A stretch of 64,000 nucleotides of DNA from Arthrobacter sp. OVS8. GTDB lineage: Bacteria > Actinomycetota > Actinomycetes > Actinomycetales > Micrococcaceae. This document shows, one piece after another, positions 39,944 through 46,936 of this stretch; within the stretch, counting starts at the first letter, position 1; every line of letters starts with the position of its first letter. The DNA lies in contig CP116670.1 of the NCBI GenBank assembly GCA_028370155.1, positions 3,100,001 to 3,164,000 of the forward strand, written 5' to 3'. The notes beneath the pieces were generated by a model that did not search any database, was not told where the DNA came from, and saw only the letters and a program-made list of their open reading frames with translations. Made by a program: the position numbers and the translations under genes.

Positions 39944-40585
39944 CTAGCCTCGATTGCCGCCAGCGGTCGAAGCCGCCCGGACAGCTTCCGCGCGCGCCAC
40001 GAGGTCAAACCGCGTCCGCGTCAGCAGGGCCAGCTGCGCGTCCTTGTCCGCCAGCCGGATGACGGGACCCAGCTCGAAACACGTGGCCCGCAAGCGCTTG
40101 ATGGCCTTGGCGTTACGGGCATCCGGTTCCACGATGACGCGGTCCTTGGCGGGGTCCGAAAACATAAACCGGATGAGGGCCGAGACCAGCACCGGCGTGA
40201 AGTGCGGGATGTGCCGGGACGGCGGAGCCAGCAGCAGATGCATGCCGATGTCGCCAGGCAGGGCCGGGTAGGCCTCGCCGACGGGATCGTGCAGCGGTTC
40301 GTAGGTCTGGAACAGCCCCACCGGCTCTCCGGCCAGTTCGATCAGGTAGGCATGGTGGGTGTCCAGGCCGTCGAGGAATTCGTAGATCTCCAGCACCTGG
40401 GCCCGTGTGTGGGACCGCATGCCCCAGAAGCGGGCCCGCTCCTCCGACACCCAGCCGTGGATCAGGTCAACGTCGTCAGCGGGCACCACCTGCACCAGCC
40501 GCAGCCGTCCCCACCCCGGAAGTACCTCCTCGTAGGCGGCATCCGCCCGGCGGGACACGGCCGGCCCGGATTCAGCGGCGCTCAT
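39944..40585 (-). CDS. Siderophore-type GNAT acyltransferase (AlcB/IucB/DesC-like)
   Basis: This intact 213-residue GNAT protein is of the kind that acylates hydroxylamines in hydroxamate siderophore synthesis (IucB, AlcB, DesC, MbtK). Family features are DVDLIHGWVSEERARFWGMR (the HxWM/xxRxxFW block), YLIELAGEPVGLFQTYEPLH, GDIGMHLLLAPP and DRVIVEPDARNAKAIKRLRA. The gene overlaps the stop of the acylase gene by 14 bases and shares its transcript behind an iron box. No NIS synthetase or monooxygenase gene is in the window, so the siderophore is not known. Confidence 0.85.
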   Translation of the reverse strand: MSAAESGPAVSRRADAAYEEVLPGWGRLRLVQVVPADDVDLIHGWVSEERARFWGMRSHTRAQVLEIYEFLDGLDTHHAYLIELAGEPVGLFQTYEPLHDPVGEAYPALPGDIGMHLLLAPPSRHIPHFTPVLVSALIRFMFSDPAKDRVIVEPDARNAKAIKRLRATCFELGPVIRLADKDAQLALLTRTRFDLVARAEAVRAASTAGGNRG

Positions 40586-42654
40586 GGTTCTCCTTGGTCA
40601 GCAGGTCCCAGTCGGTGAGGACCGGGATGAGGTCTCCGGCGGCCCACAGGGGCAGCTGGCTGGCGAAATGCTTATGGTCGGGGACGCCCGAGGCCCCGAA
40701 CGGAACCACCCAGCGGCTGTTGTCCCGGTCAGCGAGGTCCCAGACATACCGGGCCACAGGGCCGCGGAAGGAGCTGTCGGTGATGCCGGGAAGGCTCTCC
40801 GTCGAGAGGACGCAGCCGGTGTCGCCGGACAGCTTGGTGGACGGAACCGCGGGGGCCCGGCCCGTGTCCGAGAGGGCATGCACGGGATGAAGCACGTGGG
40901 TGCCGCCCCAGGGAGTTTCGGCGCGCACCGCGGTTGACTCGAGGGCGTCCGCGGCAGCCCGGGCGACGTCGATGCCGTGACGGGCGCCGTCGTCGAGAAT
41001 CGTTTCCAGCGCGAACCCCACCCGGGACACCGGTGCGGTCCACGGCCCGAACAGGGCGGGAAAACCGGTGGGGGCGTGCACGCCCGCCAGCGCGTCATCG
41101 GCCGCGATTCCCCGCACCAGCGCGGCGCGCCACGCCGCGAACGCCCCGGCGTCCGGGCTGTCGGCGTCCATGCGTCCGTCCCAGCCCAGCAGCCGGTCCA
41201 GCAGGCCGACCGCGGGAGCGGACAGGCCCCCGCGGGCCAGGCCGGCGAGCAGTCTCCTCAAGGCCGGCCAGGGCCCCAGCTGCGTGTCGGAGTGGATCTG
41301 CTGCATGCCGGCCACATCCAGCCGGAGCCCTCCCGACGCGCCGGCTCCTTCAAGCAGTTCACGGATCCTGCGGGCGCGGTGGGCGGGCGCGAACTCCATG
41401 CCCAGGAGTTCGCCGCCGCCGGCAGCCCGGTCGTTGGCGCTGACGGCAAACGGGTGCGGGGAGGATGCCGGCAATTCCTCGTACCCGCCGGTCCACTGAT
41501 GCCGGGATGACCACGCGGGAACGGGCCAGCGGCGGTTTTCCCGGTCCCGGCGGGGCACCCGTCCGGCCACGAACTGAAGAATGCCGCCGGACGTGTCGGC
41601 CGCCAGCACGCTGTTGACCGGTTCCACCCACTGCCGCAGGGCTGCCTGCACGTCGGCGCAGGAGCGGCTCCGCAGGAGCGGAAGGAGGGCCTCGAAACCC
41701 AGCGTCCGCTCAACGCGCGCGGGCGTGCGCAGGCTCAACGCGGCGCCGTCGGGCTGTCCGCTGATGACCGGCCCGCGGGCCGTCTCGATGACCTCCACGG
41801 TGACCGGTTCCGCGCCGCGGACCGCCACAGTCTCGACCCGGGACGCCGCCGGCTCCCAGCCGGAGGATCCGCGGGCTTCGACGCCGGACGCGGTCCGGCG
41901 GAGCTCCTCGGAGAACAGGTCCTGGTAGTCGGACATCGCGTTGGTGATGCCCCAGGCGACGCTGCCGGCATGGCCGAAATGCGGAAGTCCGGGCACCCCG
42001 GGAAGGCGAGGCCGACGACGTCGATCTCCGGGCACGCGAGGCGGACCTGCTGGTAGACGCCGGGCAGCTCCAGCAGGCGGTGCGGATCGCCGGCCACGAG
42101 CGGCGCGCCCGACGCGGACAGGGAGCCGTGGACCGCCCAGGCGTTGCTGCCGGACCAGACGGGCGCTTCGATGCTGAACAGGTCCACGGCCCCGTGCCCC
42201 AGCGTGGCGGCGACGTGGGCGCGCCAGAGCTTGTTGGGAAAGCTCGCGAACAGGATGTGGTGGACCAGGAAGACCCCCAGCGGGGTCCACGGCTGCCAGG
42301 GCTCCGGAGAGGTGGCCGTTGCGGTGAACTCGGGGCTCCGCGCCTGCCGTCCTCGAGTGCCCGGTTCACGCCGTCGACGTAGGCCTCGCACCACCGGCGG
42401 GTTTCGGCGTCCAGCGCTGCGAAACATTGCCGGGCCGTGTCGTCCAGCCGCGACTGGCGGGCGAAGGTGTCCCACTCGATGCCGGACGCGCCGAATTGTT
42501 CGGCCGTCCTGCCCTCGGAGCGCCAGCGTTCCATCTCTATCTGCCAGGAACGGTCCGTGGCGGCGTTGCGTCCCTGCAGGAAGGCCAGCTCGTCGGCGGA
42601 ATCGGCGCGCAGGTGGGGGATGCCCCAGGAGTCGCGGAAAGTCTCAGCGGGCAT
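40572..42654 (-). CDS. Penicillin-acylase (Ntn-hydrolase) family protein, DesG-like context (2 frameshifts in sequence)
   Basis: This 694-residue protein has bases restored near 42346 and 41994. The alpha part starts [20 protein letters not shown] with [20 protein letters not shown]. The beta part begins at the conserved [20 protein letters not shown], whose Ser before Asn would be the autocatalytic N-terminal nucleophile. Further blocks are [19 protein letters not shown] and, near the C-end, [20 protein letters not shown]. There is no signal peptide, unlike secreted penicillin acylases, so it acts in the cytosol. The iron box and the linked siderophore acyltransferase suggest amide formation or cleavage on a siderophore, as proposed for DesG of Streptomyces. 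Confidence 0.85.
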
Positions 42655-42700: not shown

Positions 42701-42719
42701 TTAGGTGAGCCTTACTTGA
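42701..42719 (-). promoter_or_regulatory. Iron box (DtxR/IdeR/DmdR-type operator)
   Basis: TTAGGTGAGCCTTACTTGA matches the 19-base consensus TTAGGTTAGGCTAACCTAA at 14 positions, including the complete left half TTAGGT. It ends 46 bases upstream of the acylase ATG (minus strand). Binding of an iron-loaded repressor here would switch the acylase/acyltransferase pair on under iron limitation. Confidence 0.75.
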
Positions 42720-42764: not shown

Positions 42765-42890
42765 TTATTGAACCCGCGGAGCCGCCAGCGCCCGGGCTGC
42801 CGCCCCGGGGCATAAATGCCGCGGTTATCGCACAGTGCGGGTATTGCTGTGAGATTAACGGCATTCCGGCGGGAATCCGCGGGTTAATAA
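42765..42890. promoter_or_regulatory. Cluster of repeated operator-like sites upstream of the HTH-MurA gene
   Basis: Three related sites occur. TTATTGAACCCGCGG (42765-42779) is the inverse of CCGCGGGTTAATAA (42877-42890) apart from one inserted base. CCGCGGTTAT (42819-42828) is a third half. A separate perfect dyad ATTCC-GGCG-GGAAT lies at 42863-42876. Repeats of this kind next to an XRE-HTH gene suggest autoregulation, and possibly control of the divergent acylase operon. Confidence 0.55.
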
Positions 42891-42913
42891 ATCATGCGTG
42901 ATATTTTCTTGGG

Positions 42914-44436
42914 ATGACTCAAGAGACTGCTGAACACGTCGGTGCCCTGCTCCGCGACGCCCGCGGCCAGAAGGGCTGGACCCAGGGGCAACTCGCTGCC
43001 GAGCTGGGAACCAGCCAGAGCGCTATCGCCCGTATGGAACAAGGCAAGCAGAACCTGAGCCTGAAAATGATCCAGCGGCTGGAGTCCATCTTCGGCCGGA
43101 GCATCGTCAAAGTGGGACGGCCCGCCATGACGCATCTCCGGGTCGAGGGCGGCCGCACCCTGTCCGGTGCCGTCGATGTGAACAGCAGCAAGAACGCCGG
43201 CGTCGCCCTGCTGTGCGCCAGCCTGATCAACCGCGGCACCACCACCCTGCGGCGGCTCGCCCGGATCGAAGAGGTCAACCGGATCGTCGAGGTGCTGACC
43301 AGCATCGGCGTCGAGTGCACCTGGCTCAACGCCAACGACCTGCAGATCCGCCGCCCCGCCGTGCTGGACCTGGACTCGATGGACGTCGAGGCCGCCCGCC
43401 GGACCCGCAGCGTCATCATGCTGCTGGGTCCGCTCCTGGACGAATCCAGCGAATACCGGCTGCCCTACGCCGGCGGCTGCGACCTCGGCACCCGTACCGT
43501 GCAGCCGCACATGCAGGCGCTGCGCCAGTTCGGCCTCAGCGTCGACGCGAAGTCCGGCTACTACGCCGTGAAGGCGCCGCCGTCGGACGGGCACGACCGC
43601 TCCTTCGTGCTCAGCGAACGCGGCGACACCGTCACCGAAAACGCCATCATGGCCGCCGCCCACCGCAGCGGCACCACCATCATCCGCAACGCCAGCCCCA
43701 ACTACATGGTGCAGGACCTCTGCTTCTACCTGCAGATGCTCGGCGTCGGGATCCAGGGCGTCGGAACCACCACCCTGAAGATCACCGGCCGCCCCGCGGT
43801 CGACGCCGACATCGAGTACTTCCCTTCCGAGGACCCGATCGAGGCGATGAGCCTGATCACCGCCGGGATCGTCACGGACTCGGCGGTCACCATCCGCCGC
43901 GTCCCGATCGAATTCATGGAGATCGAACTTGCGACGCTGGAACAGATGGGCCAGCGGCTCGAAGTGTCCGGCGAGTACCTGGCCCGCAACGGGCGCACCC
44001 GGCTGGTGGACGTCACCACCAAGCCCTCCGCCTTGCGCGCCCCGGAGGACAAAATCCACCCCATGCCCTTCCCCGGGCTGAACATCGACAACCTGCCCTT
44101 CTTCGCCGTCATCGCCGCCAATGCCGAGGGCCAGACCATGATCCACGACTGGGTCTACGACAACCGCGCGATCTATCTCACCGAGCTGAGCAAGCTGGGC
44201 GCCCGCGTGCAGCTGCTGGACCCGCACCGGATCTACGTCAACGGACCCACCAAATGGCGTGCGGCCGAGGTCGGCTGCCCCCGGCACTCCGCCCCGCCGC
44301 CTGCCTGCTGCTGGCGATGCTCGCCGCCCGGGGCGTCTCGGAACTGCGCAACATCTACGTGATCGAGCGCGGCTACGAGGACCTGGCCGAGCGGCTCAAC
44401 ACCATCGGCGCGAAGATCGAGTACTTCCAAGACTGA
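42914..44436 (+). CDS. XRE-family HTH fused to a MurA-like enolpyruvyl transferase (1 frameshift in sequence)
   Basis: This is a 507-residue fusion with one C restored near 44280. Residues 8-62 form an XRE/Cro HTH (GWTQGQLAAELGTSQSAIAR). Residues 72-507 form a full UDP-GlcNAc 1-carboxyvinyltransferase-like domain. Catalytic residues known from MurA appear conserved: Lys93-Asn94 in NSSKNAGVALL, Arg165 in RTRSVIMLLGPLL, Cys189 and Arg193 in GGCDLGTRTVQPH, Asp392 in GLNIDNLPFF and Arg460 in CPPALRPAA. MurA adds enolpyruvate from PEP to UDP-GlcNAc, the first step to peptidoglycan. The housekeeping murA has no HTH, so this may be a ligand-sensing regulator. Weak ribosome site at the ATG. Confidence 0.9.
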
Positions 44437-44547: not shown

Positions 44548-45731
44548 ATGCGCACTTTCGGCGTGGAAGAAGAACTGCTCATTGTGGATCCCGAAACAGG
44601 GATGCTGCTTGCCCTCGCCGATGTCATGCTGCCCGGCCTGGTGCCGCCGAAGCAGGACGCCGCCCAGCTTCTCCCGGGGCAGCAACCGGTCCACGACGGC
44701 GGCGCCGACTTTAGTTACGAGCTCAAGCTCGAGCAAATTGAGACCCAGACACGGCCTTGCCTGGACTACACCGAACTCCTCCGGCAGCTCAGGCAGGGCC
44801 GGGCACGGGCGGACCGCGCCGCCCGCGCGCACGGCGGCCGCGTCGCGGCCCTCGCCACCTCGCCCCAAGGTGCCGCCACGCATCTGACGCCCAATCCCCG
44901 CTATATGACCATGCAGCAGCGCTTCGGGCTCACGGTCCGGAACCAGCTGACCTGCGGCCTCCACGTCCACACCCTGGTGGACTCGCCGGAGGAAGGCGTG
45001 GCCGTGATGGACCGGATCCGGGACAAGCTGGCCGTGCTGATAGCCCTCAGCGCGAACTCCCCGTACTGGAACGGCGCCGAGACAGGATTCGAAAGCTACC
45101 GGACGCAGGCCTGGAACCGCTGGCCCGGGTCCGGTCCCACCATGATCTTCGGCAGCCTGCCCGTCTACCGGCGGCTGGTGACCCGGCTCGTGGAAAGCGG
45201 CGTCCTGATGGACGAGGGGATGGTCTACTTCGATGCCCGGCTGGCCCGGCACCATCCCACCGTGGAGATCCGTGTCGCCGACGTCTGCCTGCGGGCCGAG
45301 GACGCGGCGCTGATCGCCGTGCTGGTCCGCGCGCTCGTCGAGTCGGCGTCCCGGGAATGGAACGACGGCGTCGACCCCGCCCCCGTGCCCACGCTGCTGC
45401 TGCGGATGGCCGCCTGGCAGGCCAGCAACTGCGGTCTGCGCGGTGAACTGCTGGACTTCGGAACCTTCACCCCGGCCCCGGCCGCCGACGTGGTCCATGC
45501 CCTCGTGGACTTCGTCGCCCCCGTGCTGGAGGAGCAGGGCGAGCTGGAACTGGTCCGCGAGGGCGTCGAAAGGATCCTGGCGGAGGGTACGGGTTCGCAG
45601 TTGCAGCGGGAGCCGTTCCACACAGGCGGGTTGGCCGCCGTCGTCGAACGGGCCGTCGAAGTGACCACGGAGGAAGCGCCGCCGTGGAGACCGACCAGGA
45701 TTCGTCGCTGGGCGGGGCCTCCCGGACCTAG
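44548..45731 (+). CDS. YbdK-type carboxylate-amine ligase (glutamate-cysteine ligase 2 family) (1 frameshift in sequence)
   Basis: This 394-residue ATP-grasp-like ligase of the GCS2/YbdK family begins [20 protein letters not shown]. It has [52 protein letters not shown] and [20 protein letters not shown]. YbdK shows weak gamma-glutamylcysteine synthesis; in actinobacteria the real reaction is mostly unknown. A restored base near 45682 gives the C-terminus [16 protein letters not shown] and a TAG at 45729-45731. The unrepaired frame ends ten bases later inside the convergent metZ. The stops of the two genes then share the palindrome CTAG. Confidence 0.87.
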
Positions 45732-46936
45732 ACCTGCTTGAGCGCCTGGCCCAGGTCGCGGATCAGGTCCTCGATGTCCTCGAGTCCCACGGACAGGCGC
45801 ACCACGCCGTCGCTGAGCCCGATCGCCGCGCGGCCTTCCGGCCCCATGGCGCGGTGCGTCGTGGTGGCGGGATGGGTGATGAGGGACTTCGAATCGCCCA
45901 GGTTGTTGGAGATGTCGATGATCCGCAGGGCATCCAGCAGCGCGAAGGCGGCCTCCTTCGCGGAACGCCCGGCGGACGGGGCCAACTCGAAGGTCAGCAC
46001 GGTCCCGCCGGCCTTCATCTGCCGTGCGGCCAGTTCGTACTGCGGATGGGACGGCAGCAGCGGATACTTCACCCAGCCCACCGCGGGCTGCTGCTCGAGC
46101 CATTCCGCCAGCCGCAGCGCGGAGGCGGAGGAATGGTTGACGCGCAGGGCCATCGTCTCCAGCCCCTTGGTCAGCACCCACGCGTTGAACGCCGAGAGCG
46201 CCGGGCCGGTGTGGCGCATAAGCTGCTTGACCGGGCCGTCGATGAATTCCTTCGTGCCCAGGATCGCGCCGCCGAGCACACGGCCCTGGCCATCGATGTG
46301 CTTGGTGCCGGAGTAGACCACCACGTCCGCGCCGAGCTCCCCGCAGCGCTGGAGCAGGGGCGTGGCAAAGACGTTGTCGACGACCACCGTCGCCCCGGCG
46401 GCGTGCGCCAGTTCGCTGACGGCGGCGATGTCCACGATTTCCTGCATCGGATTCGACGGCGACTCGAAGAAGACCGCCGTCGTGGGTTCCGACAGCGCAG
46501 ACCGCCACTGCTCCAGGTCCGGGCCGTCCACAAACACCGTCTCCACGCCCCACCGGGGCAGGATCTCATTGAGGATGACGAAGCACGAGCCGAACAGCGA
46601 GCGGGCCGCGACAACCCGGTCGCCGGCGGCCAGCAGGGCGCCGAGGGCGGTGAAGACGGCGGACATGCCGGAGGCGGTGGCGAAGCAGGCCTCCGTGCCT
46701 TCGAGCAGCCGGAGCCGTTCCTGGAAGGTGGCCACGGAGGGGTTGCCGTAGCGGGAGTAAACGAAGCGTTCGTCCTCGCCGGTGAAGGCGCGCTCGGCGG
46801 CGGCCGCGGATTCGTAGACGAAACCGGAGTTCAGGAAGACGGGCTCGGAGGTTTCCTGGAATCCGGTGCGGTCGAGGCCGCCGCGGACGGCCTGGGTATC
46901 GGCGCTCCAGCCGGCGGCGTCAGGGTTGAAGGTCAC
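45728..46936 (-). CDS. metZ: O-succinylhomoserine sulfhydrylase
   Basis: This intact 402-residue PLP enzyme of the Cys/Met metabolism family makes homocysteine from an O-acylhomoserine and sulfide. The N-terminus [20 protein letters not shown] and [20 protein letters not shown] are typical. The PLP-binding lysine lies in [40 protein letters not shown] and [14 protein letters not shown] follow family patterns. The GTG start directly follows the TAA of the rhodanese gene. It is the third gene of a SAM-riboswitch-controlled operon, consistent with methionine biosynthesis. Confidence 0.94.

Follow-up and report, generated by a model that had tools for sequence, protein, structure and literature searches.

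Proteins in which an enzyme and a DNA-binding repressor are combined in a single polypeptide are known as trigger enzymes, with PutA, NadR and BirA as examples, and it is this arrangement that we propose for the protein described here, a fusion between a helix-turn-helix (HTH) domain of the XRE type and a MurA-like enolpyruvyl transferase. To our knowledge, none of these three is an enolpyruvyl transferase or carries out the committed step of peptidoglycan synthesis. What is known of how MurA is adjusted to the supply of precursors comes mainly from proteolysis and from feedback on the enzyme.

By analogy, BzdR may be regarded as the nearest precedent for an enzyme that has become a regulator. 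According to the accessible part of the source (PMC3602430), BzdR/BoxR proteins carry an XRE HTH N-terminal to a metabolic enzyme fold (shikimate kinase-like), so that an enzyme has been recruited to transcription control; the genes that BzdR regulates serve the anaerobic degradation of benzoate, and its kinase-like domain has lost activity as an enzyme. The fusion differs in that its enzyme domain looks active as judged from its residues, that some genomes have no other MurA, and that the sole conserved target found is its own gene. It also falls outside the BzdR/BoxR group itself, as its C-terminal domain is MurA-like and PRK08154, the NCBIfam model for regulators of anaerobic benzoate metabolism, matches residues 5–65 only, below the cut-off.

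The gene is very probably the same as that known in Streptomyces as murA2 (SCO5998, sven5810, vnz_28735), because an aconitase gene is divergent to it, as in the SCO5998/SCO5999 pair, and a BldM-WhiI motif is found upstream. As far as the accessible text of the published accounts goes, murA2 is described as a second MurA under the control of BldM-WhiI, of DmdR1 (predicted) and of SigB, and to this we add an HTH, a palindrome and a predicted autoregulation. BldM-WhiI has been footprinted at murA2 (PMC4125116), a DmdR1 box is predicted between the murA2/aconitase pair SCO5998/SCO5999, with murA2 expression anti-correlated with dmdR1 (PMC12161575), and SigB drives a SCO5998 promoter as well (PMC8346170), while overexpression of murA2 in S. 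venezuelae did not mimic the phenotype of whiI overexpression (PMC11005364). In the literature searched, which covered few subscription journals and included several papers in part, we found no description of the HTH, the palindrome or an autoregulation of murA2. The initial annotation of this DNA knew of no described system of this kind; the gene is in fact known, and what stands, for the literature searched, is that no account of its HTH was found.

The fusion gene and its distribution

The window (the complete stretch of 64,000 nucleotides of Arthrobacter sp. OVS8 DNA that was analysed) contains an XRE-MurA fusion gene of the murA2 type on the plus strand at 42914..44436, with its start codon, an ATG, at 42914. 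The N-terminal part of the protein is a Cro/C1-type HTH (residues 13–65, 42950..43108, plus strand), which is detected by Pfam HTH_3 with an E-value of 7.9e-14 and with 51.9 bits compared to a cut-off of 23, and so qualifies as an XRE domain; its recognition helix, TSQSAIARME, comprises residues 33–42. From residue 77 onward follows a MurA-like enolpyruvyl transferase domain (43142..44433, plus strand), matched by Pfam EPSP_synthase at residues 77–445 of the window protein (E 2.6e-39), with its C-terminal part out of frame. With both domains assigned by Pfam, the HTH-MurA fusion noted in the initial annotation is real.

As deposited, the open reading frame extends from 42914 to 44362, and past approximately residue 453 it encodes an unrelated tail, while the conserved C-terminus is found in another frame that ends at 44436. 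An indel error in the deposited gene is likely, as the distance from the ATG to 44436 is 1523 nt, one base less than the 1524 nt in a 97% identical relative, the completeness score of the assembly is 79.7%, and the penicillin amidase gene beside the fusion is likewise split over two frames. It is because of this missing base that Arg460 and the C-terminus lie in the other frame. Elsewhere in the same genome, two equal-scoring matches to EPSP_synthase, AroA-like by appearance, are located at G000:C1:11744-12996 and 4149872-4151124, each in two pieces; as these split matches occur at both ends of the contig, the ends probably overlap and frame errors are present in the assembly.

The fusion is by no means restricted to this strain. 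Within the window's genus every one of the 37 genomes has it at full length, as do 5 of 22 genomes from the rest of the order; at E <= 1e-60 it occurs in 16 of 396 genomes of the phylum, including 11 of 11 from a genus with large genomes (g26), which we take to be Streptomyces on the strength of sequence identity with named loci. When genome contigs were scanned, at least 584 relatives appeared among at least 590 matched stretches, so that the statement that enolpyruvyl transferases are not normally tied to DNA-binding domains, which had been part of the initial annotation, is wrong for actinomycetes. All 80 relatives among the matches listed bear actinobacterial names, and the genera among the matches listed are Streptomyces, Kitasatospora, Nocardioides, Aeromicrobium, Ornithinimicrobium, Knoellia, Brachybacterium and Allokutzneria; HTH_3 was found in each of the 47 of these 80 that were scanned. 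A further family with the fusion, that of genome G269 (f24), has upstream sequences in common with Mumia and Nocardioidaceae records, which suggests that it represents the Nocardioidaceae. One genome has a second XRE-MurA copy (L041, G036:C35, 6491-8077) that is 76% identical, has a degenerate recognition helix and is without an operator.

The MurA-like domain

The AlphaFold model of the protein from Streptomyces mutabilis (L150) has a pLDDT of 86 and a pTM of 0.79, and its enzyme part adopts the MurA fold over the full domain, superimposing on MurA 5ujs with a Z-score of 44.0 and an rmsd of 2.2 over 413 residues. In the structure comparison, MurA entries mostly reached Z-scores of 41–44 (42.3 for 1uae), ahead of NikO (38.6) and AroA (about 34). 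The linker (residues 62–70) and a loop (residues 189–191) have a pLDDT <50, and such a linker, if the model is correct, would not favour a tight allosteric coupling between the two domains.

The likeness to canonical MurA extends from the fold to the catalytic residues, including the cysteine that is the target of fosfomycin. Positions K22, N23, R91, C115, R120, D305, R331, R371 and R397 (E. coli numbers), which we take to be those with catalytic and PEP-handling roles in E. coli MurA, are conserved throughout the 64 fusion rows of the alignment, although the counterparts of R371 and R397 lie beyond the frame break in the window itself. The relatives thereby bear out the earlier notion of an intact catalytic centre. 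Of the residues named for the window protein at that time, Lys93, Asn94, Arg165, Cys189 and Asp392 are right, but E. coli Arg120 corresponds to Arg194 rather than Arg193, and Arg460 is out of frame in the window.

Apart from its N-terminal HTH, the fusion is unlike canonical MurA in the stretches that bind UDP. Five replacements (S162G, V163D, G164T, E188N and D369P) are present in 64 of 64 fusion rows at positions that do not vary among the 46 canonical MurA rows, a few of the rows being duplicates and the D369 column being less surely aligned because of an extra residue in the fusion; positions 121, 123 and 124 are mostly different too. These replacements suggest that the UDP site has changed. 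The cut-off of the murA equivalog TIGR01072 (392.7 bits) is missed by the truncated window protein (249.6) as well as by a full-length Streptomyces protein (300), while the latter passes the cut-off of subfamily PRK09369 (297) with 313.5 bits. The Streptomyces fusion is 27% identical both to E. coli MurA and to the MurA of its own genome. At the fosfomycin-target position, 29 of the 46 canonical MurA rows have an Asp, and all 64 fusion rows have a Cys.

Predicted operators and recognition helix

The upstream regions of the orthologs have in common an 18-bp palindrome, TATCTCA-N4-TGAGATA. When identical sequences were collapsed, 208 loci gave 168 distinct upstream regions, 162 of which reach a palindrome score of at least 11/16, compared to about 1% of shuffled sequences and 7 of 166 far-upstream controls at the same threshold; in 151 of the 162 the palindrome ends 7–14 bp ahead of the start codon. 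This is a likely palindromic operator at the target promoter, as expected of an XRE regulator, and it covaries with the recognition helix as described below. In the window's genus the operator takes the form TA(A/G)CTCAT-N3-TGATAT, and the predicted operator O1 of the window (TAAATCATGCGTGATATT, 42888..42905, plus strand), a genus variant of TATCTCA-N4-TGAGATA, has one deviation from the strict genus pattern. In the family of G269 the operator is present in 23 of 24 loci, and in 20 of the 21 loci that were unseen when the motif was set, the exception being G580, which has an altered helix. The palindrome stays beside the fusion gene although the gene neighbourhoods change.

The initial annotation had placed the operators at other sequences in the same interval, three CCGCGG sites (42774, 42819, 42877) and an ATTCC-N4-GGAAT dyad (42863). 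These are literally there but are not conserved across the genus: of 43 distinct upstream regions, one has the dyad, one has CCGCGG more than once, and 7 have at least one CCGCGG. We have rejected them as operators, since the conserved elements are found elsewhere in the interval. Some Streptomyces-type loci (L096, L097, L099, L105, L113, L131, L141, L148, L162 and L172) carry additional palindromes ahead of the fusion, namely TATCTCGATGTCGAGATA (7 loci) and AATCTCATATCCGAGATA (3 loci), which may perhaps represent sites for another regulator or an extra operator.

A second operator, O2 (TATCGCACAGTGCGGGTA, 42826..42843, plus strand), is predicted 62 bp upstream of O1. An element of the O2 type (18 bp, TATC[GT]CA...) reaches at least 12/14 in 41 of the 43 upstream regions of the genus, versus 0.3% of shuffles. 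Its distance to O1 is 62–64 bp in 32 cases and 72–74 bp in 9, the two classes being one helical turn apart, and this spacing is what would be expected for dimers bound to one face of the DNA. The exact O2 sequence has a single match in the 4.18-Mb genome of the window; of 7 other genomes of the genus that were searched, 5 contain the same pattern once and 2 lack it.

The likely -10 box is TATTTT (42902..42907, plus strand), which overlaps O1 and is situated 6 nt ahead of the ATG. More generally, TANNNT is found at operator positions 17–22 in 96 of 126 non-redundant operators, with 6–7 nt to the start codon in 85 of the 96, and the box of the window's genus is shifted by 2 bases relative to this family-wide TANNNT. 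As the TA belongs to the operator, only the last T of the hexamer (24% expected) counts as independent evidence. From this we infer a leaderless promoter, the -10 box of which would be covered by the bound dimer.

The base sequence of the half-sites follows residue 39 of the recognition helix. Asn39 is associated with TC/TC half-sites (88 of 92) and Thr39 or Gly39 with AC/AC half-sites (6 of 6), while Ala39 goes along with mixed half-sites that are often asymmetric; these counts leave out six upstream regions with a score <11. Thr39, together with Gly36, is found again in another family (G573), with AC in one half-site. The helix consensus is lost in 4 of 81 rows (L041, L067, L107 and G580), and the operator is gone in the same four; L130 has lost the operator with a normal helix, and L024 and L089, like L130, combine a normal helix with an operator score <11. 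On a tree of the 81 rows, independent losses of the helix are accompanied by loss of the operator in 3 of 3 cases (p 0.25, with small counts and related sequences that are not independent), and the Thr39/Gly trait forms 2 supported pairs, in 1 of which the strict operator label follows, too few for significance. As far as these alignments indicate, the palindrome covaries with the recognition helix of the fused HTH and is absent where the helix is degenerate.

The operator is also largely specific to the fusion gene. In the Streptomyces-type genomes (g26), the core pattern occurs in 37 of 41, once in 31, twice in 6 and not at all in 4, with a count of 0 for the reversed control. Of 30 fetched Streptomyces-type sites, 28 lie 11–12 bp ahead of the fusion; the exact sites that lie elsewhere are L180 (G477 has one further site besides it) and L185 (G488 has no other). 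The strict genus pattern occurs in 35 of 61 genomes of the window's genus, at 36 sites (control 0), the 26 genomes without a match including the window's own, and all 30 fetched loci with this pattern adjoin the fusion. When one mismatch was allowed, six g26 genomes gave 1–3 extra sites each, which differ from genome to genome. At the same tolerance 69 of the 396 phylum genomes have a match, but 56 of these 69 are without the fusion at E 1e-60, and 3 of the 16 fusion genomes of the phylum set have no match, so that a match at this tolerance is not enough to identify an operator; in G194 the match is located elsewhere. These distributions suggest that the one conserved target found is the fusion's own gene, with a site that is close to unique per genome, and that minor further targets are possible.

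Genomes without another MurA candidate

In the window's genus, the match table lists a canonical MurA alongside the fusion in 37 of 37 genomes. The window's own genome, for which the initial annotation had suggested a check, indeed has a second, HTH-free murA (G000:C1:219702-220964; 408 bits, above the murA cut-off). Among 41 genomes from the family of G269, 18 contain AroA and the fusion only, all of which are >=90% complete and <=5% contaminated and 7 of which are single-contig, and 10 contain a canonical MurA as well. The remaining 13 have lower completeness or higher contamination, are split, or do not have one of the two; three of these 13 (G569, G576 and G587) show no MurA-like match whatever, for which reason absences in draft genomes are weak evidence. 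With G045 (91% complete, 6% contaminated), G049 and G361, which also have AroA and the fusion only, there are 21 such genomes in all.

The other member in all 21 genomes is AroA, with 124–187 bits to E. coli AroA and no more than 50 to MurAs. MurB was found in 13 of 13 genomes tested (10 of the 18 together with G045, G049 and G361). Because the fusion is the sole MurA candidate and MurB is present, the fusion must supply MurA in such genomes, and from genome content we infer that it makes enolpyruvyl-UDP-GlcNAc; the altered pocket should then be compatible with a MurA role. In G580 (L380) the fusion is the only MurA candidate and both the helix and the operator are lost, a natural uncoupling in which the enzyme has outlived its regulation.

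Neighbouring genes

Divergent to the fusion in the window lie a GNAT acetyltransferase gene (Acetyltransf_8) and the penicillin amidase gene that is broken over two frames (39944-42654, minus strand), preceded by an iron-box-like site (42701-42719) that matches 14 of 19 positions of the iron-box consensus. Only 2 of the 43 upstream regions from the window's genus, and 4 of 125 others, have an iron box of at least 14/19, and we have rejected it as a general feature of the fusion; as it is so rare upstream of the fusion elsewhere, we assign it here to the divergent genes. In the 97% identical relative (L037), a different gene is directly upstream of the fusion, according to crude gene calls. Given this, and given conserved operator sites that occur almost only at the fusion gene, the idea that the fusion controls the divergent iron-boxed operon finds no support.

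Clustering of the neighbouring genes, which rests on the same kind of crude gene calls (in which the fusion of L038 went uncalled), returned clade-bound partners, and conserved operon partners were rejected on this ground. The most widespread partner is aconitase, present in opposite orientation in 40 of 105 neighbourhoods and directly divergent within 1.5 kb in 19, with AcnA identified in L099. The BldM-WhiI motif (at least 10/12) occurs in 37 of 75 Streptomyces-type upstream regions, 36 times at -56 to -60, compared to about 2% of shuffles. In three non-Streptomyces loci that are among the 40 (L085, L088 and L108), an aconitase gene is found on the far side, 6-8 kb downstream of the fusion start, which may be due to chance or reflect an older link. 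The gene downstream of the fusion in the window (44548-45741, plus strand) resembles glutamate-cysteine ligases of the GCS2 family and is a neighbour only in loci of the window's genus among those displayed.

Discussion

We consider it probable that the fusion is an active MurA that carries its own repressor and acts on its own gene. The autoregulation, which the initial annotation had already suggested, now has support from a conserved palindrome and from its covariation with the recognition helix. The protein would consist of an XRE HTH, a short and poorly predicted linker, and a MurA-fold domain with PEP-handling and catalytic residues. Dimers of the fusion would bind the operator or, in the window's genus, two operators on one face of the DNA 62-64 or 72-74 bp apart, and the bound dimer would block RNA polymerase at the -10 box, so that the protein limits its own synthesis, while the enzyme domain would make enolpyruvyl-UDP-GlcNAc. 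Occupancy by substrate, or the cysteine-PEP adduct, may weaken DNA binding, which would provide more MurA when UDP-GlcNAc accumulates or the enzyme is inhibited; we give this step, the least certain of the model, roughly equal chances of being right or wrong.

It is precisely this step that is missing from the strongest alternative, to which we attribute a substantial though less than even probability, namely that an active MurA represses its own promoter simply according to its concentration, with no effect of any metabolite. A linker with pLDDT <50 at residues 62–70 is in line with such a level control, and a sole conserved target that is the gene itself would be enough for negative feedback on the enzyme level, but feedback of this kind would not need the enzyme itself as the repressor. 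A more radical departure, which we regard as unlikely, is that the MurA domain no longer makes enolpyruvyl-UDP-GlcNAc and has become either a sensor in the manner of BzdR or an enolpyruvyl transferase for another acceptor. NikO illustrates that MurA-like enzymes can use other acceptors, and with its fold match to the L150 model (Z 38.6) it may be a functional parallel; the fixed changes at 162–164, 188 and probably 369, the altered stretch 121–124, and a score below the murA equivalog cut-off point in the same direction. However, the catalytic residues are kept in 64 of 64 rows, and the genomes without another MurA weaken a different-substrate reading, as 21 genomes offer no MurA candidate besides the fusion, MurB is present in all 13 of them that were tested, and those of their fusions that were aligned have the same pocket changes.

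The palindrome might also be bound by another regulator, the fused HTH being vestigial. Operators by themselves do not name their protein, and L024, L089 and L130 have a poor site although their helix is normal; the covariation between residue and base, the joint loss of helix and operator, and the persistence of the site beside this gene in changing neighbourhoods make this very improbable. Least credible of all is the original model, a precursor sensor that acts via the CCGCGG and ATTCC sites and controls itself together with the divergent iron-boxed operon. The sites are literally present, and a predicted DmdR1 iron box lies next to murA2 in Streptomyces as well (PMC12161575), but the dyad and the paired CCGCGG each occur in 1 of 43 regions, and the iron box in 2 of 43 in the genus and 4 of 125 elsewhere.

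In species with a second MurA, a self-repressing fusion would be a conditional extra enzyme, and in Streptomyces, according to the literature, murA2 is turned on by BldM-WhiI during sporulation. The broadest form of our interpretation, which we put forward tentatively and rate only a little below even, is that in a large part of the actinomycetes one protein carries out the committed step of peptidoglycan synthesis, monitors how far it is engaged in catalysis (the UDP-GlcNAc/PEP load or the cysteine adduct) and sets its own transcription accordingly, and that in many Nocardioides-type bacteria it is the sole MurA.

A MurA with its own operator would give Streptomyces and other actinomycetes a direct transcription route for adjusting MurA level, and within the family of G269 there are 18 genomes where this route would apply to the only MurA candidate. 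With an operator, a recognition helix, and natural variants that are without either, the proposal is testable at once in Streptomyces, where it predicts that inhibitors of the fosfomycin type may alter the expression of murA2.
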